64,000 nucleotides of DNA from Okeania sp. KiyG1 (GTDB taxonomy: Bacteria > Cyanobacteriota > Cyanobacteriia > Cyanobacteriales > Microcoleaceae), in contig NZ_BLZO01000126.1 of assembly GCF_014132355.1 (NCBI RefSeq), forward strand, positions 1-64,000, given 5' to 3'. The notes beneath the pieces were generated by a model, which made no database searches, was not told where the DNA came from, and saw only the letters and a program-made list of their open reading frames with translations. The position numbers and the translations under genes were made by a program. This document shows, in pieces, positions 6,131-54,763 of the stretch; within the stretch, counting starts at the first letter, position 1, and every line of letters begins with the position of its first letter.

Positions 6131-6500
6131 TTACCTAAATAACACGGGAGCATGAAAGCCATCGTCTTTTAAGCGATGGATGAAAGGCGAGGAGTCGGAT
6201 TTTAATCCGATGTATTTGATTTTACCGAATAGAACAGGTAATAATTGGTGTGTGAATGCAGACTGTAATGGGGCTGCAAATATAATTGCAAAAGTAAGCC
6301 GCAAAGCTGTAGGGGCGTTAACGATAGTTATGCGCAAGCTTTCGGCCGTTCGCCTCTACTTAAGCCAACTGTGTAGGGGCACTTTGACTTGTCCCCAAAG
6401 AATATATCTTTGGTCAGCTAAGAACAGACGGAGCAACACGGATTTATCCTGTTGCGTAGTATCTGCGCTTGTTTCCCCGTGACTGACCTCCGGGGAGTAG
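6131..6500 (+). pseudogene. tnpB (OrfB, IS200/IS605 type) relic: element end fused to the gene's C-terminus
   Basis: The left part (6131-6205) is the reverse complement of 53908-53975 and holds a CCATCG/CGATGG hairpin, typical of an IS200/IS605 subterminal palindrome. It runs straight into a TnpB C-terminus in frame: RTGNNW, VNADCNGAANIIAKVS, then RGTLTCPQRIYLW. The zinc ribbon and RuvC parts are gone, so the middle of the element was deleted. A 51-bp palindrome (6309-6359) interrupts the C-terminal frame. The relic sits between cpeS and cpeT. Confidence 0.75.
6309..6359. repeat. 51-bp GTAGGGGCG palindromic repeat, copy 1 (inside tnpB relic)
   Basis: The ends GTAGGGGCG and CGCCTCTAC are inverted repeats around TTAACGATAGTTATGCGCAA. 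Other copies lie at 20508-20558 and 25629-25678, with a short form at 12710-12737. Here it adds exactly 17 codons to the tnpB frame. Confidence 0.8.
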
Positions 6501-12198: not shown

Positions 12199-13442
12199 AT
12201 GCTTTACAGTGTAAGGGTTCGACACTATCTAAGCCCCCAGGGCATAATTTTCCGCAAACCCACCCCGGGACAAAAATACCGATAAGCCAAGCTATTTGGC
12301 TGTGTCCGTGTGGTTTGGAATGATAGTCTAGCTTGCTGCCAACAGAAGTATAAATCAGGAGAAAAGAAACCTGACTTATCAGAACTACAAAAGCTTTTTA
12401 TTACTCAAGCTAAAAAAACTGAATACAGAGAATGTGTCAGAGGTTTCTAACATACCATTGCAGCAATCTTTGAATGATTTAAACCAGGCTTATCAAAATT
12501 TCTTTACTTCAACCAAAGGTAAGAGAAAAGGTAGACCTGTCAAACCTCCGCGATTCAAAATTAGAAAGTCAAAACAAACAGCTAGGTTTACAAAAGGTGG
12601 ATTTAAAGTTGGTCAGCATAAAGTCTATTTAGCTAAGATTGGAAAGCTGAAAATTGTTTGGTCAAGAAAACCACCTAATGTTCCATCATCAGTAACAGTA
12701 ATCAAAGATGTAGGGGCGAACGGCCGTTCCCCCCTACATAGATATTTTCTGAGTTTCGTAGTAGAAACTTGTGCCAAAGTGTTGCCTAAAACTGATAATT
12801 CAGTAGGTATAGATTTAGGAATTAAAACTTTTGCTACTTTGAGTAATGGTCAAAAAATTGATGCTCCTAAACCTTTAAAGAAAAGGATTAAGAAGTATCG
12901 TAAGTTAAGTAAATCATTATCTAATAAAACTCAAGGGTCTAAGAGGTATGAAAAAGCTAGATTGAGAGTAGCTAAATTTAATGCCAAATTGAAAGATACA
13001 AGGACAGATTTTCTACATAAATTATCCACTAAAATAATTCGTGAAAACCAAACAATTGTTTTAGAAGTATGACAATGTATCTGGAATGGTTAAAAACCGT
13101 AAATTATCCAGAGCAATTAGTGATTTAGGTTGGCAAAAATTCCGAACACTTCTAGAAGGTAAAGCAGAAAAATACGGTCGTGATTTTAGAGTAATTAGTC
13201 GTTGGGAGCCAACGTCTCAAACTTGCTCATGTTGTGGATTTAAAGGTGGAAAATTAGACCTTCAGGTGCGAGAGTGGGAGTGTCTCAACTGTGGTGCCAA
13301 ACATGATAGAGACGAGAACGCAGCAATAAACATATTAGTCGCGGGCGGGCAGTCCGAGACAAAAAACGGACGTGGAGGCAAGCGTAACCCACCCCCATCC
13401 CCTCCCGGGAGGGAGCAAGAGGGTGGGTGCAGCAGCCAATGA
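12199..13442 (+). pseudogene. tnpB (IS200/IS605 OrfB) pseudogene
   Basis: Three frames together give a TnpB RNA-guided nuclease: N-terminus from the ATG at 12199 (stop TAA at 12283), helical part with FGCVRVVWND, a shift near 12433, RuvC-I VGIDLGIKTFATLSNG, a second one-base shift near 13066-13072, then the RuvC/zinc-ribbon end TSQTCSCCGFKGG, CLNCGAKHDRDENAAINIL. The catalytic Asp of RuvC-I and the DRDENAA motif are present, but the gene is broken. A 28-bp palindrome sits in frame at 12710. The element separates proV from its permease and its right end is at 13511. Confidence 0.88.
12710..12737. repeat. Short GTAGGGGCG palindrome inside tnpB
   Basis: GTAGGGGCGAACGGCCG and its complementary right arm end in CCCCTAC. 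It encodes the stray stretch VGANGRSPLH between KD and RYFLSF, where TnpB proteins normally read directly through. It is a short form of the 51-bp palindrome found at 6309, 20508 and 25629. Confidence 0.75.
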
Positions 13443-14788: not shown

Positions 14789-16774
14789 TTGATTTTGAAT
14801 TATTTATTTCACTACTTCATAGCTGAAACTCAAGGAGGATTAGAAATTTTATTTAACCCATTTGAATCTTATACTTTACCCTTAGATGAATGGATTAATA
14901 ATGTAGTTAACTTTCTGGTTGACAATTTTCGTCCTATATTTCAAACTATCAGCTCACCAATTAGCGGAACTCTAGAAATAGTAAAATCGACTTTTCTAGC
15001 AATTCCGCCCTTAATTTTTCTGATCGTCATCGGTGTTCTGGTTTGGCAACTAGCAGGCAGAAAAATAGCTATCTATAGTGTTATAGCTTTTTGTATTATT
15101 GGTCTTTGTGGCGCTTGGGAAGCAGCAATGGTTTCCCTATCTTTAATACTGACTGCCGTAGTATTCTGTATGCTGGTCGGTATTCCTTTAGGTATTGCTT
15201 GTGCAGTGAGCGATCGCTTTAATCAAGTATTGCGACCTCTCCTAGATGCTATGCAAACTCTTCCGACCTTTGTTTACTTAGTACCTGTAGTAATGTTGTT
15301 TGGAATTGGAGAAGTTTCTGGTATAATAGCAACTTTTGTTTTTGCAGTTCCTCCTCTAATTCGTCTGACTAACTTGGGTATTAGGCAAGTATCCCCAGAA
15401 GTGGTAGAAGCTGCACTTGCTTTTGGTTCAACTCGCCAACAAGTTTTATTGGAAGTGCAAATTCCTCTAGCTTTACCTACTATACTTGCTGGCACAAACC
15501 AAGCCATTTTATTAGCTTTATCAATGTCAGTTGTTACCTCAATGATTGGGGTAGAAGGATTAGGACAAATGGTATTGCAAGGTTTAGGTCGTTTAAATGT
15601 TGGACTAGCTGCGGTAGGGGGGTTAGGTATTGTTTTAATTGCTGTAATGCTTGACCGTATCACTCAAGGAGTTAGTCAAGGTAGTCTTCAGTCTTGGCAA
15701 GAGCGTGGTGTGATTGGATGGTGGCGGTCTCGTAAACCTTCCAAACGTAATGGTATAGCTTTAGGGATAGCTATCGTGCTTGCTTTGCTAGTAGGTGTGA
15801 CAGGTTGGCAATTAATGTCTCAAACAAATACCAACTTAACAGAAGAACCATTGCCAGGGAAAGGAATAGTAGTTCATCCAGCTTCTAGTTTGTCAACCTA
15901 TAGTGTATTTATCACAGACATTGTGAGTATGGGACTGGAAAAATTAGGCTATGAGCTCAAAGATCAAAAACAACTGAATTTTGCAGCAATGTACATCGCT
16001 CTTAGTAATGGAGATTTAGATTTTACTGCAGCTCATTGGGAAGTTGCCCACCAAGGTTTTTTCGACGACAATGGTGGGGAAGAAAAATTAGAACGGTTAG
16101 GAACTCTGATTTCTAATTCTACTCAGGGGTATCAAATAGATAAAAAAACTGCTGAGGAATACAACATTACTAATTTATCACAACTTCAAGACCCAGAAAT
16201 TGCTAAACTTTTTGATTCGGATGGTGATGGTAAAGCAAATTTAATTGGTTGTACTTCTGGTTGGGTATGTGAAAAAACTATCACTCATCATTTACAGGTT
16301 TACGGACTTGAGGATACTGTTGAGCAAGTTCGAGGAGATTATTCTGCGATATTAGCAGATACTGTAGCTCGTTATCGTCAAGGAGAACCAATTCTATTTT
16401 TTGCCTGGAAACCCCATTGGTCTGCCTCTATTTTAAGAGAAGGAGAAGATGTAGAATGGTTGAATGTTCCTTTTACATCCTTATTAGGAACTATGGAAAA
16501 TTTCACGGAAGAAGAGACTTCATGGGATGGTAAAAATCTTGGTTTTGCTATTGATAATATCAGGATATTAGCTAATAAGGAATTTTTGCAGGCTAACCCA
16601 GTTGCTCAACGTTTATTAGAACAAATTGAGATTCCTATGGAGGATGTTAATATTCAACAGGAAAAAGTTAAAAATGGGGAAAATAAACCTGAAGATATTC
16701 GTCGTCATGCTGAAGAATGGGTGACAAATCATCAAGAATTATTTGATAATTGGTTGTCAGTAGCAAAAAGTTAG
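14789..16774 (+). CDS. Glycine betaine-type ABC permease fused to substrate-binding protein, copy 1
   Basis: The product has 661 residues. Residues about 60-310 are a ProW-like permease (AMQTLPTFVYLVPVVMLFGI, FGSTRQQVLLEVQIPLALPT and VTSMIGVEGLGQMVL). A further membrane segment near 325-345 tethers a ProX/OpuAC-like domain (about 355-655; AAHWEVAHQGFF, GWVCEK, FFAWKPHW, whose tryptophans suit quaternary-amine binding). The likely start is TTG at 14789 because AGGAGA (14775-14780) lies 8 nt away and no ATG is near. It pairs with the ATPase at 10966, now 2.6 kb away across an IS and a porin fragment. Confidence 0.88.
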   Translation: MILNYLFHYFIAETQGGLEILFNPFESYTLPLDEWINNVVNFLVDNFRPIFQTISSPISGTLEIVKSTFLAIPPLIFLIVIGVLVWQLAGRKIAIYSVIAFCIIGLCGAWEAAMVSLSLILTAVVFCMLVGIPLGIACAVSDRFNQVLRPLLDAMQTLPTFVYLVPVVMLFGIGEVSGIIATFVFAVPPLIRLTNLGIRQVSPEVVEAALAFGSTRQQVLLEVQIPLALPTILAGTNQAILLALSMSVVTSMIGVEGLGQMVLQGLGRLNVGLAAVGGLGIVLIAVMLDRITQGVSQGSLQSWQERGVIGWWRSRKPSKRNGIALGIAIVLALLVGVTGWQLMSQTNTNLTEEPLPGKGIVVHPASSLSTYSVFITDIVSMGLEKLGYELKDQKQLNFAAMYIALSNGDLDFTAAHWEVAHQGFFDDNGGEEKLERLGTLISNSTQGYQIDKKTAEEYNITNLSQLQDPEIAKLFDSDGDGKANLIGCTSGWVCEKTITHHLQVYGLEDTVEQVRGDYSAILADTVARYRQGEPILFFAWKPHWSASILREGEDVEWLNVPFTSLLGTMENFTEEETSWDGKNLGFAIDNIRILANKEFLQANPVAQRLLEQIEIPMEDVNIQQEKVKNGENKPEDIRRHAEEWVTNHQELFDNWLSVAKS

Positions 16775-17885: not shown

Positions 17886-19876
17886 TTGTTGATTTTGAAT
17901 TATTTGCCTCACCACTTCATAGCTGAAACTCAAGGAGGATTAGAAATTTTATTTAACCCATTTGAATCTTATACTTTACCCCTAGACGAATGGGTTAACA
18001 CTGCCGTTAATTTTCTAGTTGATAACTTTCGTTTCCTATTTCAAGAGATCAGTTCACCCATAAAAGATACTCTGGAAATAATTAAATCTGGTTTTCTAGC
18101 TCTTCCTCCCTTAATCTTTCTCATAATTATCGGCCTGCTGGTCTGGCAAGTAGCAGGAAGGAAACTAGCCATTTACAGCATCATCGCTCTTTGTATAATT
18201 GGTTTTTGTGGAGCTTGGGAGGAAGCAATGGTTTCCCTGGCCCTGGTTCTAACCGCCGTAATATTTTGTATGTTAGTGGGTATTCCTCTAGGTATTCTTA
18301 GTGCCATTAGCGATCGCTTCAACAAAATATTACGTCCCCTCCTAGATGCTATGCAAACTCTTCCGAGTTTCGTCTACCTAGTACCTGTAGTAATGTTATT
18401 TGGAATTGGAGAAGTTTCCGGCATTATTGCCACATTTGTTTTTGCAGTCCCCCCTCTAATTCGTCTGACAAATCTGGGCATTAGGCAAGTATCTCCAGAA
18501 GCAGTAGAAGCAGCTTTAGCTTTTGGCTCAACTCGCCAACAAGTTTTATTGGAAGTGCAAATTCCTTTAGCTTTGCCTACTATTTTGGCTGGCACAAACC
18601 AAGCAATTTTATTGGCCTTATCAATGTCAGTTGTCACCTCAATGATTGGGGTAGAGGGATTAGGACAAATGGTATTACAAGGTCTGGGTCGTTTAAATGT
18701 TGGACTAGCTGCTGTAGGTGGTTTGGGTATTGTTTTAATTGCGGTGATGCTCGACCGTATCACTCAAGCTATTAGTCAGGGAAAAGTTCTTTCTTGGCAA
18801 GAGCGAGGTTTAATTGGATGGTGGCGGTCTCGTGGCTTTTCCAAACAGAAAGGTACAACTCTAGGGATAAGTATTTTGGTTGCTTTGCTGGTTGGTGTTA
18901 CTGGCTGGCAATTAATGTCTCAAACTACTATAAATTCAAAAAATGAAGCATTGCCAGGGAATGGAATAATTGTCCGGTCTACTTCTGGCCTGGAAACATC
19001 CGGTATATTTATTACAGAGATTGTGAATATTGGGCTGGAGAAATTAGGCTATCAGGTGAAAGGACCAAAGCAATTGAATGTTCCAGCTATGCATATTGCT
19101 GTGAGTAATGATGATGTGGACTTTACTGGTGTCCATTGGCAAATTGCCCACAAAGAATTTTTTGACAAGAATGGTGGGGAAGATAAGTTAGAACGAGTTG
19201 GAACGCTTATTTCTGATTGTCAAGCGGGGTATCAGATAGATAAACAGACTGCTGAGAAATATAATATTACTGATTTATCGCAACTCAAAGATCCAAAAAT
19301 TGCTAAACTTTTTGATTCAGATGGTGATGGTAAGGCAAATTTAATCGGTTGTACTGCTGGTTGGGTGTGTGAAAGAGTAATAAATCATCATTTACAGGTT
19401 TACGGACTTGAGGATACTGTTGAGCAAATTGAAGGAGATTATTCTTCTTTAATGGTAGATACTTTGACCCGTTATCGGCAAGGTAAACCTATTCTTTATT
19501 TTACTTGGACTCCTCATTGGTTAGCTTCGATTTTAAAAGTTGAGGAGGATGTGGAATGGTTGAGTGTTCCTTTTACATCCTTATTAGAAGCTCAGGGAAA
19601 TTTCACTGAAAAAGATACTTCAGTTAATGGAAAAAAATCTTGGTATTCCAGTCGATCGAGTTCGGATATTAGCTAATAAGAATTTTTTTGCAGGATAATC
19701 CAGTTGTTCAAAGTTTATTTGAACAGATTGAAATTCCTCTAGAGGATGTCAACCTCCAACAGGAAAAAGTTAAAAATGGGGAGAATAAACCTGTAGATAT
19801 TCGCCGTCATGCTGAAGAATGGGTTGCCGATCATCAAGATTTATTTGATAGTTGGTTGTCAGTAGCTTTGAATTGA
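17886..19876 (+). pseudogene. ABC permease/substrate-binding fusion, copy 2, frameshifted
   Basis: This tandem duplicate of the 14789 gene has the same permease (LPSFVYLVPVVMLFGI, SMIGVEGLGQ) and binding domain (TGVHWQIAHKEFF, FTWTPHWLAS). Two homopolymers break it: A7 at 19631-19637 and T7 at 19683-19689. Reading through both restores GIPVDRVRILANK and then QDNPVVQSLFEQIE to LSVALN. The stop overlaps the start of an inverted IS end (TTGAC at 19873). AGGAGA at 17871-17876 favours TTG at 17886 or 17889. A truncated 596-residue product could still contain most domains. Confidence 0.85.
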
Positions 19877-24010: not shown

Positions 24011-24102
24011 TTACTATCTTCATAATACCATGACGATCGATATTAATTCAATAGATTGGATTATTTCAGCATATTAACTGAAATCTAAAAAGCGTCCGGA
24101 GG

Positions 24103-24569
24103 AAGTACGCAGCGCCCGTTTTAACGGCTGGTTGAATAACGACACGCGGGTAATAAAGGGAATTAAAAGTCTGCTATACTAGATGAATAAGGAACAAGGT
24201 TTGTCGCCATGACATGACCGTGCTTTGCGGTGAAATTCCGGTGGACAGGAGACGGGGAATTAACTTCCTACGACGGCTGTTAGCTCCGCATTCGGCACCG
24301 AAAAGCAAGTAGGCAGCTAGAGCAGCGAGAAGATTGCTCCAACCAGTGCGAGTAAAACCACTCGTGAAAGCTAACAAAAAAAAAGTAAACTCACAGCTAG
24401 ATTTCCGTCTATGCCGAGGAGTTTAGGAGTCTGGCCTTCAGGCTTTAAGCAAATGTGGATTTATGAGGGGCTGCGTGCGGAATTTACTTCCGCACATTTA
24501 TTCGCCCCGTCCCAAATGGGGGTGGACTAACCACAGAATCCAGGGTGTTTCAACCCCTGGAGATGTCAA
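24103..24569 (+). ncRNA. HEARO-like structured RNA element, copy 1, no protein gene
   Basis: The 467-bp element matches 54189-54661. Conserved blocks are GTACGCAGCGCCCGTTTTAA, ACAAGGTTTGTCGC, GGACAGGAGACGGGGA, TTCCTACGACGGCTGTT, GCATTCGGCACCGAAAAGCA, AAACTCACAGCTAGATTT and TATGCCGAGGAGT. Stems keep their pairing while loops change (for example GTGCGGAA/TTCCGCAC around different pentaloops). It ends CCCCTGGAGATGTCAA, an IS608-type right end. Size and design suggest an IscB omega-RNA (HEARO) or a related scaffold whose nuclease gene was lost. The HEARO assignment is from memory of the family and needs a covariance search. Confidence 0.55.
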
Positions 24570-25146
24570 TTCCAGCCATATTCTTCTCAATCATTGCTTC
24601 TAATTGTTTGCGAGTAATACAACGACGTTCGGAACAATAGGCCATCAAATTAACACCATTCATCATTCGCACTGTACTAACTCTGACTCGAAAATCATCT
24701 GTCAGAAACCAACAACGTTCTTGTCCTTGGTTTCTTTCATATTCTGTGTCAATTGTCAAGACTCCATCTGTGGCAAAATGATATCTACCCACTACAGGAA
24801 TACCTTCAACATAGCCACGATTACGCAAAAATTTTCCAGTTAAGCCTATTTCTGAATCAGGAATATCTACTAAAATAGCAGCATAATTTGGATTAGGTTC
24901 ATCATCATCTAAATTATCTTGCCAGTTAAAACTTGCACCACCTGTTGCTAAAGCTGGATTGACATTTTGTTGTTGGCAAACTTCCAAAACTTTAGGGTCA
25001 TCTTTTGTTAAAACTTTGACGATCAAATTAGATTTCCCTGACTCATCTTGAACAGAATCAAAATGATGGACAGTACGTTGAGAAAACCATATTCCCTCAC
25101 TTTTAAGAAAAAAATCCATCATTGTCATTGGTGGTGTGAATTTCAT
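24550..25146 (-). CDS. CpcS/CpeS-family phycobilin lyase, second type
   Basis: The protein has 198 residues. Signatures are MTMMDFFLKSEGIWFSQRTV, NPNYAAILVDIPD, GKFLRNRGYVEGIPVVGRYH, ERCWFLTDDFRVRVSTVRMM and YCSERRCITRKQLE, which place it in the CpcS/CpeS lyase family, clade distinct from the gene at 5382. It would attach bilin to a phycobiliprotein. The start may be MKFT (25146) or the inner MTMMDF. Its last codons (GIDISRG) are supplied by the right end of the HEARO-like element, whose TCAA lies at 24566-24569, so the native C-terminus has been replaced. Confidence 0.85.
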   Translation of the reverse strand: MKFTPPMTMMDFFLKSEGIWFSQRTVHHFDSVQDESGKSNLIVKVLTKDDPKVLEVCQQQNVNPALATGGASFNWQDNLDDDEPNPNYAAILVDIPDSEIGLTGKFLRNRGYVEGIPVVGRYHFATDGVLTIDTEYERNQGQERCWFLTDDFRVRVSTVRMMNGVNLMAYCSERRCITRKQLEAMIEKNMAGIDISRG

Positions 25147-25197
25147 TTTTTTTGCCCCTAAAGTTTTGTTAACATCTAAAAGATTTTTAGCTAGAGC

Positions 25198-25282
25198 GTC
25201 GATTCATCTCACACCATAATTGAAAATTTGGTGTGAGATGAATCGACGGTAAATTCATGGGAGGAGATGTCCCATGAATTTA
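25198..25282. repeat. Two consecutive perfect hairpins
   Basis: GTCGATTCATCTCACACC (25198-25215) pairs perfectly with its inverse at 25230-25247. TAAATTCATGGGA (25250-25262) pairs with TCCCATGAATTTA (25270-25282). They lie 50-140 nt upstream of the lyase start on the other strand and could be the subterminal palindromes of an IS200/IS605 left end or a leader structure. Confidence 0.7.
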
Positions 25283-36389: not shown

Positions 36390-39300
36390 CTATTCTGGAG
36401 CTGAATAAGAATTTGTTGCACACCACTCATCAGGGCGTACATAACCTGCAAGAGCTGGTTGGTCATTATCTTGTCTCTTTGCACAGAGCAAAACTCTCAC
36501 CCAATCATCATCTGAACTAATTTCTCGGAAATACTCGTTAGGATCATCAACAGGTTCTCCTGTAAACCTTTGAGCGAATAAGTCAGGAGTCTGAGATAAA
36601 AGACCTACATCAAAACCCCAAGAACGTGCTGACGGCCAGTAGAACGGAGACCTTTGAGAGAATGCACCACCTCTGTAGGGAAAACCATTGTCGTTATTGT
36701 TCCATCGATAAACAGCTCTACCACTACCATTAAGTTCGTAGAATAAACCTGCTGCTGTGTTCTGATCCTTGTCCGCTGGCTGCATAGGTGCTGTAGCATA
36801 CTTTGTTTGTCCAGACTGAATTAAATTACCCCTAATATTGATTGTCCGTTGTGGAATCTGGTCAATGTCAGGATCGCCCCACATTTCTAGAGTCCGAACA
36901 AAGTTATGCAGACCACCACTTGTCTCACTTGGGTTTGGTCTTGATGGTGTGTTACCGCTGACAAATGTTATGTTGTAAAATGTTGAATCATTCGGACCGT
37001 CATCGTCTGCTACTTGAAGCCATCGTCGTTGCAAGGCAGTTTGTTTATCTTGGCCTGTACCTCCGAAAGGTGTATTACCAGTACCTGGTGTTCCTGTAGC
37101 TGAATGAATTTGCAGCATAGGAGCTAACAATGGCTGACCTTCAGGAGCATAAGTTCCACCAGAAATAGGCATTTGCTTGATGAATAGGGAGTTGGTGGCA
37201 TTGTAAGTTATGTTTGATGATTCAGTAGGATTAGCTGCATCACTCGTTGTCTGAAACCAAAGTGAGCCTGCTACGCTAGCAGGTGGAGAACCAGTGAGTG
37301 GAAACCTCTGAATTGTTCCTCCTGTAATATTTCCTACTGTACCAATTCCGCCGTTAATTCCAATGGGGACTAAATCTTGAGCATCGCTAATATCAGTAAT
37401 TGCATTTCCACCATTATCTGCTAGCTGATTACCATTTCTGAAAAAAGCAACTCTGCGTGCATAACCTTGAAAGGCTGGATCTGCAGGTCGAGCTGTTGTG
37501 CCTGCCCTGTGTATTGCAGGATCAAATGTTGCAGTAATGACGTTAGAAGCTTTCAAATTTAAATCTGGATCAACATTCCAATCATCAGGCGTACATTCAG
37601 AAACAGGTAGTTTTGTACACACTTCCATCAAATATTCTGGAAAATTTACCCGTCGCTGAATCGGAGTAATACCATTAGCTAGATAAGAATTCATATAGTT
37701 CTGTTCCTCAGTCTTATCTGGGTCAGTATCCGCAACAGTATTAGGCCAAACGCCACCATCACTCCCATCATCAGCCCACTGAGAAGTGGTAACAAAGTTG
37801 TTGAACAGGAAGCCATTTTGCAGGAAAGCTGCTGCTGCATCATTCCCAAGATTATTCCGCAAATCATAATCTCCTTGATTGCGATAACCATCTTCCCAAT
37901 CATTAGAAAGTAACGTTATCGAATCAGCAATCACTGTTGCCGGACGCCACTGGTCGCCTCCATCTCCACATCCTGGTTGACCGCTACGACAGGCAAAACC
38001 AGTATTAAAGCCTTCATCACCACGAGTATAAAAGTTCCCCCAATCAGCATCTAATGTTTTATTAAATTCTTCCCTGGGAGTTTCTGTACCTGGTTTCTTA
38101 TGGAGGTTAAATCCAGGAATACCATCTTCTGTTTCTGCTGCTGCTTTGATATAAACAGGCACGTTTGATACTAAAATCAAACCCTTTTCTACCGCCACAT
38201 CTCCATCATTAGCATCAGTTCGAGATAAGTTTGTACCATTGACTAAGCGAATGCCATTCGGACGACGAGATGGGTCAAGCTTAAAGTCTGATGTACTTAG
38301 AAGTTCTTCTTCTACAGTGGGGTCGTTGATATCTCCATCTTTATCCACAGCACTAATATCTGGCAAAGCATCATCACGGCTGGCATAAATTACTCCACTA
38401 TTAGGTAGTAAATATTCGCCTGTACCTATTGTTGCACCTGACTCTCGAAGTTGACTCAAGTCTATCTCTGTGACTCGAATTTCTAGAGGTTGCCTTTGCT
38501 CTAAAGGCAAATTATACCTTGTCGGGTTATCAGCAGGGTTGTCTGAATTTGGTTGCAAGTTTTCTAATTCTGCTATTTCCAGCCATTCAGGTAGTGTTTC
38601 ATCAGTGCTAAGGCGATTAAGTGATTTAACTTCCCTGGCATCTAGGAATGTTGCTTCTCTGATTGCTCCATGAGGAATTGCTGTTGAATAATCAGTTGGG
38701 CTGTCCAATATATGCAAAGCACATTGCGCCGCGTGTATTGCTGAGTAATGCTGTAGTAGTCGATCGCCTGCTGCTGTCTCTAAAGCTGTTTTCAGGGGTA
38801 GATTTACATAGCGTCCATTAGGGTATTTTAATTCTGCCTGAACTGTTAGTCTGGCATTAGATTCACTTACTGCGACATAATTATAAACAATGCCATTATT
38901 TGAGCGGCCATCTACATCCTCATTCCATGGTAGTCCATCCTGATTAAGAGCACTGATGTCATCTGTTGGATCGTAGTAATTGCTAATACAAGCAAAAGGA
39001 GTTTGTGCTGTATTATCGGGGTTGCCAGCTTCTTGTGTATCTTCTTCTGCATAATGATACACTGCTGTTGCCCGCATCCTTAGATAAGGAATTTGAGCAG
39101 CTTCCGGATCTAATGTACCATCATTATCCGCGTCTAACAATATAATATCATCACGAATACCATCACTATTTGAATCCTCAGCAGCTATAGGTTCTAATGC
39201 CATTGGCAAAGCATCAGACCAAACATTTTCCTTCTGCCAGTCATCAGAGTTTGGAGCATTAGCCAAATAAATTCCTGCACCAGTAACTACTCGCAACCCT

Positions 39301-41150
39301 CCTGAGTTTTCAAATGCTTCCGGTATATTTGCTGCTTCTTTTTCCCAAAACAGACCCCGACCAGTGTCACCTAAGTCTGGTATATCTTCTATTTGGGTTT
39401 TACGTTTTCTAAGACTATCTTCAACTGACTGGTCAGCTACACCAGGTTGATTCCATTCTATAGAATCACCTGGAAAATTTGCTTCTTCTTCATTGATAGC
39501 TGGCAAACCATAACCTACAGAAATGCGATCGCCTATTAGTAACTCTGCTTGATCTGTATTTGCCAAATCTGGATCGCTTGTAGGTAAATACGCTATATTC
39601 CCATCAGTATTAATATCACCTAAATCATTAACTGTATCAATCCCTCCAAAAGTTATTCTTGGGGTTATCGAGCGATAGTAATCCACCAGTAAATCTTCCA
39701 GTAGTTCTAAATTATCTTCGTATTCACCCGCTCTTTGATTATAACTTATTTGTACTGCCTCTGGCAAACTTCCACAATTTTCACAATTTTTACCAGGAGC
39801 ATCTGCTGGTGCGTCATCCAAAGCATCTGTTACAAGATTTGCTATTTCTGTATTGTAAGCATTGATATCGTATGCTACATCTAAGCCACCTTGTTTATTC
39901 GTTGTTATATTCGTCTCGTCGATTTGATTTTGCTGTTCGTTTGCATTTGTATTAGGTGCTGCACCTTGTATGTATCTGTGGACTACAACATTTTCTCCAT
40001 TAGGAGCACTAGACTGATTTACATCACCATTTGCTACATTACCACCCACAAGAATCTTGGCATTTTCAGCTTCATAATAACAAGATTGGGGGTCACTTAC
40101 TTGGTAGAAGGTTATTGGACCATTAAAACCAGCTCTTGTCATCAGGTTTCCATTTGTTTGTACCCTACCATTTAGTCTAAAGTTAGAAACACGACCCAAC
40201 TCCAAATCATCTTCAAACCATACCGCGTTGTTATTTAACGGGATGCGGAGACGGTCTTGCTGGTATTCGAGAGCGGAGGAACCTGTTTTCCCTATCTCAT
40301 AACTACTATCATCAAGTGTAGCTAATTGTTCTTGTGTAATTGGTACATTAGTTGTGTATACAAAGAAACTCTTACTTAATTGACTACTATTTTTATACCA
40401 ATCTGAATCTCCTACTATACCTGTAGTTGTACCAAAGGCATTTTGACATTGCGGTGAAATTGTTTCTACAGCCGCCATTGGTGGCGTTCTTGCTTCTAAA
40501 GGGTTTCTGGTACGGTCAAATTCTCCATCATTATTGCGACTGGGGCTACGGAATAAAATACTATATAAAGTGTAGGTATCGTATTTTCTATTATTATCTG
40601 TATCTACAGGAAACATCCAGGCAGTTTCCGTTTCTTCATTATCTTCTAGTCTCAGGTCATCTGGATCTTCTGAACCATTTTCTTGAATACTATTATCGTC
40701 GATAAAGTCAAATGCTATTTTGAGGGCTATTTCGTCCCCAAATCTGTATCTTCCATCAGCATTTTCACCAATTACTTGGTATAAAGAATAATCTGTAGGA
40801 GTAGAGCGGGGTAAGGCACTGTCATTAAACAGCCGATCTATTTTAGCTTTAGCCCTATCTAGAGCTGGTGTTGCTGCTGCCAAAGTTGCTTGATCTACTC
40901 TAACATTTCTGGCAACTTCTGCCCTGTTAAAAGAACGAAGCAGGATAGCAATACTAAGTAAAACTACTACCAAAATCACCATTGTTACAGTAGGCAAAAC
41001 AAATCCAGAGTTAGCGAACCTAATACGACGATTGATGATTTTTGTCACTCTTAGTAGTAATCTGTCTGTATGCCTAATAAAAAGCGGTACCAGTACCCCT
41101 ACCTGTTTAATTAAATATTGGATACTCCTGACTAACTTGTGTTTGGACAT
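36390..41150 (-). CDS. hpsA: Hormogonium polysaccharide biosynthesis protein HpsA
   Basis: The 1586-residue protein has a cytoplasmic N-terminus of about 45 residues, then one membrane segment (SGFVLPTVTMVILVVVLLSI, about 49-70) resembling a prepilin-type helix, and a very long acidic extracytoplasmic region rich in D, N and G with scattered Cys pairs (ENCGSLP; FACRSGQPGCGDGGD). Size, topology and the following pseudopilins identify HpsA, the first gene of the hps locus. Motility and slime secretion in hormogonia require this locus in Nostoc punctiforme. The frame is intact over 4.8 kb, in contrast to the decayed EPS genes upstream. Confidence 0.88.
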   Translation of the reverse strand: MSKHKLVRSIQYLIKQVGVLVPLFIRHTDRLLLRVTKIINRRIRFANSGFVLPTVTMVILVVVLLSIAILLRSFNRAEVARNVRVDQATLAAATPALDRAKAKIDRLFNDSALPRSTPTDYSLYQVIGENADGRYRFGDEIALKIAFDFIDDNSIQENGSEDPDDLRLEDNEETETAWMFPVDTDNNRKYDTYTLYSILFRSPSRNNDGEFDRTRNPLEARTPPMAAVETISPQCQNAFGTTTGIVGDSDWYKNSSQLSKSFFVYTTNVPITQEQLATLDDSSYEIGKTGSSALEYQQDRLRIPLNNNAVWFEDDLELGRVSNFRLNGRVQTNGNLMTRAGFNGPITFYQVSDPQSCYYEAENAKILVGGNVANGDVNQSSAPNGENVVVHRYIQGAAPNTNANEQQNQIDETNITTNKQGGLDVAYDINAYNTEIANLVTDALDDAPADAPGKNCENCGSLPEAVQISYNQRAGEYEDNLELLEDLLVDYYRSITPRITFGGIDTVNDLGDINTDGNIAYLPTSDPDLANTDQAELLIGDRISVGYGLPAINEEEANFPGDSIEWNQPGVADQSVEDSLRKRKTQIEDIPDLGDTGRGLFWEKEAANIPEAFENSGGLRVVTGAGIYLANAPNSDDWQKENVWSDALPMALEPIAAEDSNSDGIRDDIILLDADNDGTLDPEAAQIPYLRMRATAVYHYAEEDTQEAGNPDNTAQTPFACISNYYDPTDDISALNQDGLPWNEDVDGRSNNGIVYNYVAVSESNARLTVQAELKYPNGRYVNLPLKTALETAAGDRLLQHYSAIHAAQCALHILDSPTDYSTAIPHGAIREATFLDAREVKSLNRLSTDETLPEWLEIAELENLQPNSDNPADNPTRYNLPLEQRQPLEIRVTEIDLSQLRESGATIGTGEYLLPNSGVIYASRDDALPDISAVDKDGDINDPTVEEELLSTSDFKLDPSRRPNGIRLVNGTNLSRTDANDGDVAVEKGLILVSNVPVYIKAAAETEDGIPGFNLHKKPGTETPREEFNKTLDADWGNFYTRGDEGFNTGFACRSGQPGCGDGGDQWRPATVIADSITLLSNDWEDGYRNQGDYDLRNNLGNDAAAAFLQNGFLFNNFVTTSQWADDGSDGGVWPNTVADTDPDKTEEQNYMNSYLANGITPIQRRVNFPEYLMEVCTKLPVSECTPDDWNVDPDLNLKASNVITATFDPAIHRAGTTARPADPAFQGYARRVAFFRNGNQLADNGGNAITDISDAQDLVPIGINGGIGTVGNITGGTIQRFPLTGSPPASVAGSLWFQTTSDAANPTESSNITYNATNSLFIKQMPISGGTYAPEGQPLLAPMLQIHSATGTPGTGNTPFGGTGQDKQTALQRRWLQVADDDGPNDSTFYNITFVSGNTPSRPNPSETSGGLHNFVRTLEMWGDPDIDQIPQRTINIRGNLIQSGQTKYATAPMQPADKDQNTAAGLFYELNGSGRAVYRWNNNDNGFPYRGGAFSQRSPFYWPSARSWGFDVGLLSQTPDLFAQRFTGEPVDDPNEYFREISSDDDWVRVLLCAKRQDNDQPALAGYVRPDEWCATNSYSAPE

Positions 41151-46554: not shown

Positions 46555-47702
46555 TTATCCATTAATGAAATATGCATTTAATAATTTATTTTCTCTGGTT
46601 TTATACAACCCTCTTGTTACTATTTTTCCACTAAATTTCGGTTTTTGTTCTCCATATTTTGGTAAATCATCCCCATCTAAACAGCTTGATTGAGATGTAT
46701 AGGATTCTTCTGTTATTATTACTTTTATTCCTCTTAGTTGGGCTTTATATCTTAACATCTCTATTAACTTATAGTGAGGGATGTTCACAAATTGTTGATT
46801 GTTCTTTTTCCTAATTTTATTTCTTGTTTCCAAGTCTGATTCTGCCCAATAATTAAGGTTCCTATTTCATGGTTGATACACCAATCTATTACTCTTTTAC
46901 TTGCTGTATGGAGATAGTTTTCTACTCGACAATTTCGTTTCGGCTAAGAGCCGACATGAATGTGAGTTAATTTTTTTAACCGATGAGAATTAGTTTGATT
47001 GTGGTTAGTTTTTAATTGAGATTGTAAATAAGAGCGTTGTTTATTATAAAAGGTGTTAATTGCTTTTAATGGTCTGCCTTTAATCAACAGAGGTGATAGT
47101 TCCTGTTTGATTTGTCGTTACAGCTATTAAGTTATTTACTCCTAAATCTACTCCTGCTATTTGTTGATTTTCTGTTGTTTCCTCCTGTTTTTCATAGACT
47201 ATCTCTATTATGTAACAGCTACTTTTGGGGATAATTCTGGTTTCTATTATTTCTGTCTGTGAAGTGGGGATTTTTATTTCACTCATCGACAGATGACAAA
47301 TTCCTTTTTTAAGGTTTTTTTGTAAATTGATTCATGAGGATAGGGCAGAATATTTCGGCATGCATGCTTTATGTTTATATTTGGGAATTTTTGGTCTCCC
47401 TAAAAATTTATTGGGCTGTTTTTGCCACTCTCTTAAGGCTGAAAAATAACTACTCCAAGCTGAGTCTAATCTTCTGATTATCTGTTTGCTAACTTTGGTA
47501 GGTAAAGCTTGATAATCGTCACTTTTAGATACCTTGTGATACAGTTGATTAAAGCTTAGTTTCTTTTTGTTTTCAAAGAAATATTGGCGACTGGATAGTA
47601 ATTGGCTAAATTGAACAGATTTTTCGACAAAAAAGCCTTGTGGTCTATTTCTGACCACAAATAATGTGATTTGGTAATAACATGACGTTCAACTAGCTTC
47701 AT
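46555..47702 (-). pseudogene. tnpB (OrfB) pseudogene
   Basis: Frames along the minus strand give a TnpB: start MKLVERHVITK at 47702, a shift to RPQGFFVEKSVQFSQLL, then RRLDSAWSSYFSALREWQKQ, RuvC-I AGVDLGVNNLIAVTTNQ (47286 frame), a gap, and RuvC-II/III FVNIPHYKLIEMLRYKAQ, ITEESYTSQSS. The zinc ribbon is replaced by FSGKIVTRGLYKT. Several frameshifts and missing stretches (46834-47079) make it inactive. It separates GT4 from hpsE. Confidence 0.82.
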
Positions 47703-52885: not shown

Positions 52886-53756
52886 AACAAATAGCTGATA
52901 GCTGATAACGCAGTTCCGACCATAGGAGGCTGGCTGACTGATTAATTACTATTCTGGCTGCTTTATTAATACCGTCACGGATTTGGCGGTTACGCTTTTC
53001 TGTAATTGCAGCTAGTTTATTTGACCAAAATCCTTGAGGTCGATTTTCTTTAATGGTTGATACTTGTTTATTGTACCAACGATTCATTGATTTTATCTTT
53101 TTCCCATCTACAACCCGCGCTCGTACCTACATTGGATACACAGGTCAACCAATTATTTACACCATGGTCTATTCCTAATACATTGTCTTGGTTTAATTGA
53201 GGTTTAACTACTATTTCTTTTTCATAGACACGCTTCCCAATAAAAACATTTGTTCCTCGGTAATATTCTCAGTTCTTTAATAGATAAAAATTCGAGATTA
53301 CTCGGAATAGGAATATAAAAAATCTAGACCAAACCAGCGCTTACAGGTATTACAAGCGTGTTACTCTAATTTGATTATCTTTAAGCTTTAATGCTTGTTT
53401 GGGGTAACTAACTGTAGCCATTCCCCCTTTTTTTCTGTAGTTAGGAATCCTTGGTCTGTCTGAGATTTTACCTTCATTGTAGGCTTTCATTAGACCATAA
53501 TAAGAGCGTATGGGATTCAGCTACAGTTCTCAATATTTGTTGTGCGGCTTGAGAATATAAAACTTTGTAATGATAGTTGTGTTTATAAACTTTTTCCTGC
53601 GTCAAACTTGCCATGAGTTTTGTGAGACTTAAAATATAATTGCCGACCATAATATATTCCCATGTTAGTGAGCTTGTGAGACTGTTCAAACAAGAATGTT
53701 AAAATAGCAATAATATCGGGATTTTTACTTACTAAAACTTGCTGACAACTGTACAT
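52881..53756 (-). pseudogene. tnpB (OrfB) pseudogene, 3' truncated
   Basis: From the ATG at 53756: MYSCQQVLVSKNPDIIAILT, SHKLTNMGIYYGRQLYFKSH, then after a shift LYSQAAQQILRTVAES. Further along, in other frames, come RIPNYRKKGG and YPKQALKLKDNQIR, GIDHGVNNWLTCVS (RuvC-I) and WYNKQVSTIKENRPQGFW, NRQIRDGINKAARIVIN. The C-terminal RuvC and zinc-ribbon parts are missing at 52881. There are at least four frame changes. The element end lies at 53835-53975. Confidence 0.82.
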
Positions 53757-53834
53757 TTCAAACAGGGGCTGGAAAATTTATTGTGGTTAATAATAGCACA
53801 AGACCACTTTAGTTATCTAGTCTAAACGACTCGG

Positions 53835-53975: not shown

Positions 53976-54188
53976 GTAAATCAAGAGATGAAACCTTAAG
54001 AGTCATCTGTTTTTGATACCTCTAATATATTGTACCATAGTAAGTGATGGGTCTCACCCCTAGTAAAAAATCATCTTACCTTCAATTTGGCAGTTGAAAG
54101 CCATCAGGCTTCAGCCAATAAGCGTCCTTTTTGCCCTGAGAGAATATTTGGTTCAACGTCGCTTAAAAACCTAAAAAATGACGGGAGT

Positions 54189-54661
54189 AAGTACGCAGCG
54201 CCCGTTTTAACGGCTGGTTGAATAACGACACGCGGGTTTTAACCCGTAGTAAAAATATGCTATACTTAGCAATAGTGGAATAGCAAGTAAGAACAAGGTT
54301 TGTCGCTATGACCTTTAGCTAGTGCGGTGAGATTCCGGCGGACAGGAGACGGGGACGATGCTTCCTACGACGGCTGTTTGCGCAGCATTCGGCACCGAAA
54401 AGCAAGCAGGCAGCTAGAGCAGCGATTTATTGCTCGCTCCTTGAGTAAAACCACTCATGAAAGCTATTCAAAAAAAAAGTAAACTCACAGCTAGATTTCA
54501 TTCTATGCCGAGGAGTATAGGAGTCTGTTGATAGGCTTGAAGCAAATGTGGATTTATGAGGGGCTGCGTGCGGAAGTAAATTCCGCACATTTATTCGCCC
54601 CGTCCCATTTGCGGTGGACTAACCACAGAATCCAGGGTGTTTCAACCCCTGGAGATGTCAA
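54189..54661 (+). ncRNA. HEARO-like structured RNA element, copy 2, no protein gene
   Basis: The 473-bp partner of 24103-24569 is about 80% identical by eye, with differences concentrated in loops and in a variable hairpin (GCAGCGATTTATTGCTCGC here). It ends ACCCCTGGAGATGTCAA at 54661. A frame of 61 codons over its 3' part (KQMWIYEGLRAEV...) is preserved only because the RNA sequence is; I do not consider it coding. Confidence 0.55.
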
Positions 54662-54763
54662 CTCCATCCCCGTGTCTGGTGTGTCACCGCGTCCCCGTGT
54701 CTATGGAGAATAAAACAGCCCTGCCTCCTGGGGGTGGTTATGAGTGGGTATGCATATCTTTTC

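Follow-up and report, generated by a model that had tools for sequence, protein, structure and literature searches.

The window analysed here, a stretch of 64,000 nucleotides from the cyanobacterium Okeania sp. KiyG1, carries two copies of a transposase-less element of the IS200/IS605 type, both on the forward strand, which can be aligned end to end by blastn at 83% identity (copies A and B, Table 1). The original prediction, made from the letters of the sequence, had placed a pair of orphan structured RNAs at 24103-24569 and 54189-54661, each ending in TCAA and devoid of a protein frame. Two such copies are indeed present, and in both of them the terminal TCAA is preceded by GAAT and a hairpin. 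The predicted right ends are correct, whereas the left ends lie slightly further out, at 24085 and 54171, as defined by comparison with empty sites. Neither copy contains an ATG-, GTG- or TTG-initiated frame of 100 aa or more, in agreement with the predicted lack of a protein. Both copies also harbor a nested hairpin of ~45 bp, which is absent from 32 of 72 family copies; a similar hairpin occurs alone at three other places (C113, C109, and C58).

Table 1. Features of the two element copies, given as positions in the window
Feature	Position	Strand	Basis or remark
Copy A, transposase-less IS200/IS605-type element	24085..24569	+	485 bp; empty site in genome G004 (L278) and family match
Target tetranucleotide 5' of copy A	24081..24084	+	AAAT in the window, AAAC in the G004 empty site
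Left-end hairpin region of copy A, CAGC...GCTGG	24110..24131	+	sequence
-10-like box TATACT of copy A, proposed internal promoter	24175..24180	+	family count
5' RNA domain of copy A (model R2)	24188..24341	+	181.6 bits; covariation
3' RNA domain of copy A (model R1), TnpB omega-RNA-like scaffold and right end	24384..24569	+	122.5 bits
Nested small palindromic repeat (optional) in the 3' domain of copy A	24465..24509	+	gap columns in relatives
Right end of copy A: GAAT, hairpin CCAGGGTGTTTCAACCCCTGG, TCAA	24536..24569	+	sequence
Putative guide segment in the 3' flank of copy A, ~16-20 nt	24570..24587	+	TnpB reRNA anatomy as outlined in PMC8612924, and empty site
Copy B, same element family as copy A	54171..54661	+	491 bp; empty counterpart in L161
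Target AAAC 5' of copy B	54167..54170	+	comparison with L161
-10-like box TATACT of copy B	54261..54266	+	sequence; family count
5' RNA domain of copy B (R2)	54287..54437	+	160.3 bits
3' RNA domain of copy B (R1)	54478..54661	+	124.5 bits
Nested palindromic repeat of copy B	54558..54602	+	sequence and family comparison
Right end of copy B: GAAT, hairpin, TCAA	54628..54661	+	sequence
Putative guide segment of copy B	54662..54679	+	inferred

A CpeS-like gene (24550-25146, PF09367) lies on the strand opposite to copy A, and the last 20 nt of copy A form the end of this gene. A short repeat at 25185-25250 has many matches, in both orientations, in all six genus genomes searched. Two neighboring genes (14789-16774 and 17886-19676) each encode a permease together with a glycine-betaine-type substrate-binding domain, and a frame of 1586 aa (36390-41150) has no Pfam match at E<=0.001. 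The window also contains several tnpB sequences outside the copies, including a broken one of the L240 type described below (52935-53777, minus strand), which is located ~390 nt upstream of copy B and on the other strand, a divergent one (46573-47634, minus strand), a 3' fragment (6231-6467, plus strand), and an OrfB_IS605 frame (12434-13072, plus strand).

The mode of insertion could be read from sites that lack the element. Genome G004 lacks copy A, and its site reads ...TATTAACTTAAAC|TTCCAGC..., while the filled site in the window reads ...TATTAACTGAAAT|CTAAAAAGCG...GATGTCAA|TTCCAGC.... Both flanks could be aligned, with the site empty, in two of the five other genomes of the genus, the remaining three being uninformative; the second empty genome, G001, has TATAC at the junction rather than AAAC. 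The insertion placed the stop codon of the CpeS-like gene within the right end of copy A and altered the last few residues of the protein, the G004 counterpart ending differently when read by hand. Copy B lies inside a repeat, whose uninterrupted form in L161 is CGCTTAAAAAC|CTCCATCCCC (also quoted as CGCTTAAAAAC|CTCCATCC). Exact AAAC empty counterparts were found for copy B, L068, L108, and L115 (in L161, L299, L288, and L208, respectively), and AAAC was present at one of the five paralogous sites shown for L042. It was not seen at the sites shown for L069, L094, and L117, nor at one of the two for L068, and the counterpart of L121 gave no alignment at the junction. The exact empty sites, all without duplication, indicate that insertion takes place 3' of AAAC and does not duplicate the target, a behavior familiar from IS200/IS605 elements. 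A MITE was rejected on account of these empty sites without duplication and of left and right ends that differ in sequence. Among the 73 both-ended copies of the family, AAAC precedes 70 (AAAT the rest) and TCAA ends 72, both counts being partly built in by the end patterns used for collection; the empty sites provide a test of AAAC and TCAA that is independent of those patterns. GAAT occurs at the right end of 67 of the 73. In four loci (L047, L048, L112, and L124), elements sit directly behind ...ATGTCAA, apparently the right end of another IS605-type element.

The family to which both copies belong was assembled from 91 collected stretches, of which 18 were set aside as partial or as failing the end patterns; copy A itself is not among the remaining 73, its match having run beyond the right end. 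No tnpA or tnpB was detected by tblastn (E<=1e-4) inside any of the 73 element cores. In its own genome (11 Mb), the element has at least 33 blastn matches (40 of 99 first-look candidates scored), and covariance-model searches located the 3' half at 15 places and the 5' half at 15 places; many gene-less copies are present, an outcome that the original prediction had named as support. The occurrence of the element is far above chance. Family matches were obtained in 16 of 60 genomes searched, own genome counted, and the family pattern was found in 38 stretches of named genome records, all from Okeania or Microcoleaceae cyanobacterium MO_207.B10, and had no exact match in viral contigs. More distant relatives were recovered with R2, the covariance model of the 5' half, in 6 of 148 genomes of the order, own genome counted (20 candidates scored per genome), and in another family, where the 4 matching genomes out of 20 belong to a single genus; a class-wide search with seven candidates scored per genome gave 2 of 388, a figure that says little. 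The 18 distant loci contain no TnpA by tblastn, and their sole TnpB is one fragment outside the element (L263); chance frames of up to 121 aa overlap distant elements (L253). Two of these loci, L256 and L329, apparently represent one site in two species. By eye, (T)TTAGCC precedes a left-end hairpin of other sequence in 13 of the 18, and a pattern search found TTAGAATC-hairpin-TCAA, with differing stems, in 12. Such relatives in other families, without tnpA or tnpB inside, suggest that the elements are mobile carriers of a TnpB-type guide RNA, the reading developed below. Shortly downstream of one distant copy, a group II intron domain 5 is present (RF00029, 43.3 bits; L257, 1115-1214, minus strand).

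HEARO is a mobile guide RNA able to stand without its nuclease, and the original prediction had taken the two copies for HEARO-like guide RNAs of IscB. This assignment was not borne out. When both copies were searched with the Rfam HEARO model (RF02033), no match was obtained at the gathering cut-off or at E<=10, and because the same model has 13 matches elsewhere in the genome, six of them above the cut-off and none at copies A or B, the negative result is informative. The presence of HEARO RNAs and of 18 RRXRR (IscB-type) matches in the genome, several of the latter broken, together with a guide-type RNA that lacks a nuclease gene, would fit a HEARO-like RNA of IscB or IsrB, but the missing model match and the relation of the 3' half to tnpB 3' ends led us to reject this identity, which appears extremely improbable. 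The elements share with HEARO a mobile guide-type RNA without a nuclease gene, and differ from it in having no covariance-model match. They would also carry the guide at the other end, as it is expected 3', beyond the right end, whereas the omega-RNA of IscB has it at the 5' end. The broader part of the prediction, an orphan mobile structured RNA of the guide type with an IS608-type right end and no nuclease gene inside, which is probably mobilized in trans, still stands.

Searches of both copies against Rfam as a whole yielded nothing at gathering cut-offs, the sub-gathering matches to pemK, DdR11, sbrA, and AS-traG being at chance level. A long structured RNA bounded exactly by IS ends might also be a self-splicing or IStron-like intron with IS605 ends. 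No group I or group II match was found in copies A and B at E<=10, and the insertions are mostly outside frames: when the insertion sites were joined, a frame longer than 550 nt was present in 1 of 73, on the opposite strand, and the next longest frames, of 513 and 393 nt, run in the same direction as the element. Some copies do sit within tnpB-like sequence (L042 and L068). The missing intron matches in copies A and B and the position of most insertions led to the rejection of a group I/II intron or IStron, and there is very little to recommend it.

The identity of the 3' half emerged from comparisons with tnpB genes. The model that includes the right end (R1) matched tnpB 3' ends at 35-68 bits, with alignments extending far upstream of the right-end hairpin. 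Its 32 matches in the own genome at E<=0.1 comprise element copies, tnpB ends, and places with the right end only or with unclear content, and no TnpB was found at the R1-matched places L241 and L246. To exclude the shared right end as the driver of the match, a second covariance model (R3) was built from 19 elements with the right-end hairpin removed. R3 scores 65 bits in copy A (24384-24491) and 103.1 bits in copy B (54478-54626), and a search of the own genome with it, in which 150 of 4224 first-look candidates were scored, gave 22 matches at E<=1, of which 15 are element copies and seven are not. Each of the seven overlaps the 3' end of a tnpB, which in two cases is present just as a fragment of the last ~50 codons. 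The scores of the seven range from 35.7 down to 22.9 bits, with E values between 1.3e-4 and 0.18, and are individually modest; contig C72 is among these matches. In local searches, tnpB loci sharing the ends of the element scored 32.7 (L031), 32.2 (L032), 33.0 (L234), and 27.6 bits (L048), and those of the L240 type (L239, L240, L243, L244, L245, and L247) scored 35.7 to 22.9 bits. These ten matching loci had been chosen through shared ends or R1, whereas the 30 best-scoring OrfB_IS605 loci gave no R3 match, apart from an element copy beside one of them (L219). The likeness therefore concerns one branch of TnpB and not TnpB generally. These model matches relate the 3' half of the element to the omega-RNA (reRNA) scaffold found in that branch. 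One stretch, AAGCAAATGTGGATTTATCCCATTTGCG in the elements and AAGCAACATGGATTTATCCTGTTGCG in the L240 tnpB, has an identical loop and a changed stem.

Compensatory changes in both halves support the predicted structures. Initial RNAalifold runs, mostly on close copies, showed weak covariation, with double changes in 2 of 14 and 7 of 36 pairs, and an alignment of the 19 close elements only had 6 of 32 pairs double-changed (14 cells vs 3.6 in shuffles), with further pair types not above shuffles (15 vs 15.6). Strong support came from the addition of distant relatives and, for the 3' half, of tnpB ends. For the 3' half, 16 close and 9 distant elements were aligned jointly with 9 tnpB 3' ends, which gave a covariation score of 0.487, compared with 0.179 when shuffled and 0.119 for the best slid version. 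With the tnpB ends included, changes on both sides were found in 25 of 31 pairs of the 3' half (185 cells vs 55.8 in shuffles), and with distant relatives in 11 of 20 pairs of the 5' half (33 cells vs 7.6), both alignments having been fitted to models of the structure scored. At the level of the family, these counts uphold the earlier remark that loops vary while stems are kept.

The 5' half consists of a domain of ~150 nt with strongly kept blocks, ahead of which lies a -10-like box. Of 72 close copies, 64 have TATA(A/C)T in the 60 nt that precede AACAAGG, compared with 2.9 of 72 in single-base shuffles, and the spacing is 18-25 nt in 59 of the 64 copies that have it; this box is proposed to act as a promoter. 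At 40 tnpB-linked loci, R2 had no significant match outside the element copy in L219. Three matches below significance, with 11.7 to 12.9 bits and E values of 0.21 to 0.43, were located over or just upstream of the scaffold in L031, L234, and L240, and the 5' domain may be remotely derived from tnpB sequence.

Palindrome-associated transposable elements (PATEs), related to IS605, have been described in Haloquadratum and Halanaerobium (PMC3119063, PMC7290912). As characterized in these reports, PATEs and the elements studied here have in common the absence of a transposase gene, IS605-like subterminal palindromes, a lack of target duplication, and presumed mobilization in trans (PMC3119063, PMC7290912). 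Three PATE features were examined directly, and the family shows each of them: no transposase gene, insertion at AAAC without duplication, and ends common to transposase-bearing IS elements. The nested ~45-bp repeat also recalls the SMR-A repeats reported to hit PATE palindromes in Haloquadratum (PMC3119063). Unlike PATEs, the elements have an interior occupied by a single conserved RNA that covaries, has a -10-like box, and includes an omega-RNA half, and they occur in several cyanobacterial families. The unusual points are that the cargo is conserved and consists of RNA alone, that it comes with a promoter-like box of its own, and that the RNA has an additional domain at its 5' end.

One account in these terms is a passive PATE that keeps only the ends required by TnpA, its omega-RNA-like part being a functionless leftover of a tnpB 3' end. 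It is compatible with the ends shared with tnpB-bearing IS elements, and with the faint resemblance to R2 seen ahead of the scaffold at three tnpB loci, as expected of a deletion derivative. PATEs arising by deletion of the core have been described (PMC3119063), and a PATE-like element reported in PMC7290912 retains the last 58 nt of tnpB. Against it, ~300 internal nt beyond the ends are conserved and covary, the 5' domain has no significant counterpart at the 40 tnpB-linked loci, the -10 box is present in 64 of 72 copies, and the layout is the same in relatives from other families. We regard passive carriage as rather unlikely.

Potential partners that could act in trans are encoded in the same genome, which has at least 150 OrfB_IS605 matches. 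Three tnpB-bearing elements (L031, L032, and L048) have ends matching those of the family; L031 (contig C136) matches the left-end hairpin stretch 24110-24131, and L032 (C25) and L048 (C72) match the left end from the position corresponding to 24120 onward. Just inside its matching left end, L048 contains an open Y1 TnpA gene (C72:99265-99615, 129 bits; IS200 equivalog); the tnpB of this element is divided between two frames. Open frames that score above the guided_TnpB cut-off were found for two of the R3-matching tnpB genes, and this holds for that of L032. With regard to the TnpB partner, the sharing of ends favors the L032 type over the L240 type.

Taken together, the elements are best explained as non-autonomous, PATE-like members of the IS200/IS605 group that likely carry, as their sole recognizable cargo, a separate gene for an omega-RNA of the TnpB type; TnpA would move them, and TnpB would probably serve them, both in trans. 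The reRNA of ISDra2 provides the reference; it is described as comprising ~150 nt drawn from the tnpB 3' end and right end, followed by ~16 nt of flanking sequence (PMC8612924). The anatomy of the elements fits this omega-RNA, with a 3' scaffold predicted to extend to the right end and an adjoining flank that would serve as guide, and their stems are common to tnpB 3' ends of the same genome; unlike it, their RNA lies outside any tnpB gene, has an extra 5' domain, and has no Rfam match. RAGATH-18, for which an adjacent IS607 TnpB is reported in 64% of cases (10,258 of 16,029; PMC11061315), is another TnpB guide RNA that occurs partly apart from tnpB, but it belongs to IS607 and is a different RNA, with no Rfam match in the elements. 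Some observations weigh against the omega-RNA reading: a conserved 5' domain is unneeded in a simple omega-RNA, and the R3 likeness is confined to one TnpB branch, with modest individual scores genome-wide. The TATAC junction of G001, the further pair types at shuffle level among the 19 close elements, and the possible remote origin of the 5' domain from tnpB count on the same side.

Under the preferred reading, a Y1 TnpA encoded by a related IS would move the element in trans; one such gene, open and just inside a matching left end, lies on C72 of the own genome (G000). The transposase would peel the element off at AAAC and TCAA and paste it 3' of another AAAC. The internal -10 box would start an RNA of ~370 nt running through the right end into the flank, so that its last 16-20 nt would constitute the guide. 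TnpB supplied in trans and loaded with this RNA would cut the emptied donor site, which offers AAAC as the TAM and a matching flank, and repair from a sister copy would restore the element. The putative guide segment of copy A does resemble the sequence beside AAAC in the empty allele of G004. The 5' domain might stabilize the RNA or help to recruit TnpB in place of the tnpB mRNA, which is a guess. A different role for the same RNA would be that of a decoy or antagonist, which would bind TnpB and protect element or host against its nuclease activity rather than act as a guide. Stand-alone copies, a promoter-like box, and an extra 5' domain would suit a titrating RNA; against this, the scaffold model runs exactly to TCAA, which would put the adjoining 3' flank, resembling the empty site, in the place of a guide, and no sign of inhibition was found. 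A decoy function seems improbable.

A wider form of the omega-RNA reading can be put forward more tentatively. The family could represent an RNA-only transposon lineage, consisting of a promoter and a two-domain RNA, that borrows TnpA for movement and TnpB for RNA-guided homing, has been long-lived across several cyanobacterial families, and uses the 5' domain to adapt the RNA to work apart from the tnpB mRNA; this is conceivable, and we hold it with less than even confidence. No description of stand-alone TnpB omega-RNA elements in cyanobacteria was found in the titles and abstract openings of the best-ranked literature results, and an earlier description may exist. Work on Geobacillus IS elements reportedly mentions PATEs beside TnpB/IscB elements. 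In the accounts cited above, PATEs are defined through their ends, and omega-RNAs are treated as components of a nuclease element. If the reading is true, the guide RNA alone would be a selfish unit and TnpB a public good that can be shared. The use of TnpB in trans would be directly testable, and the element would supply a small guide-RNA gene that stands apart from its nuclease and has a new 5' domain. It would also give a name to intergenic repeats in the large genomes of marine cyanobacteria.
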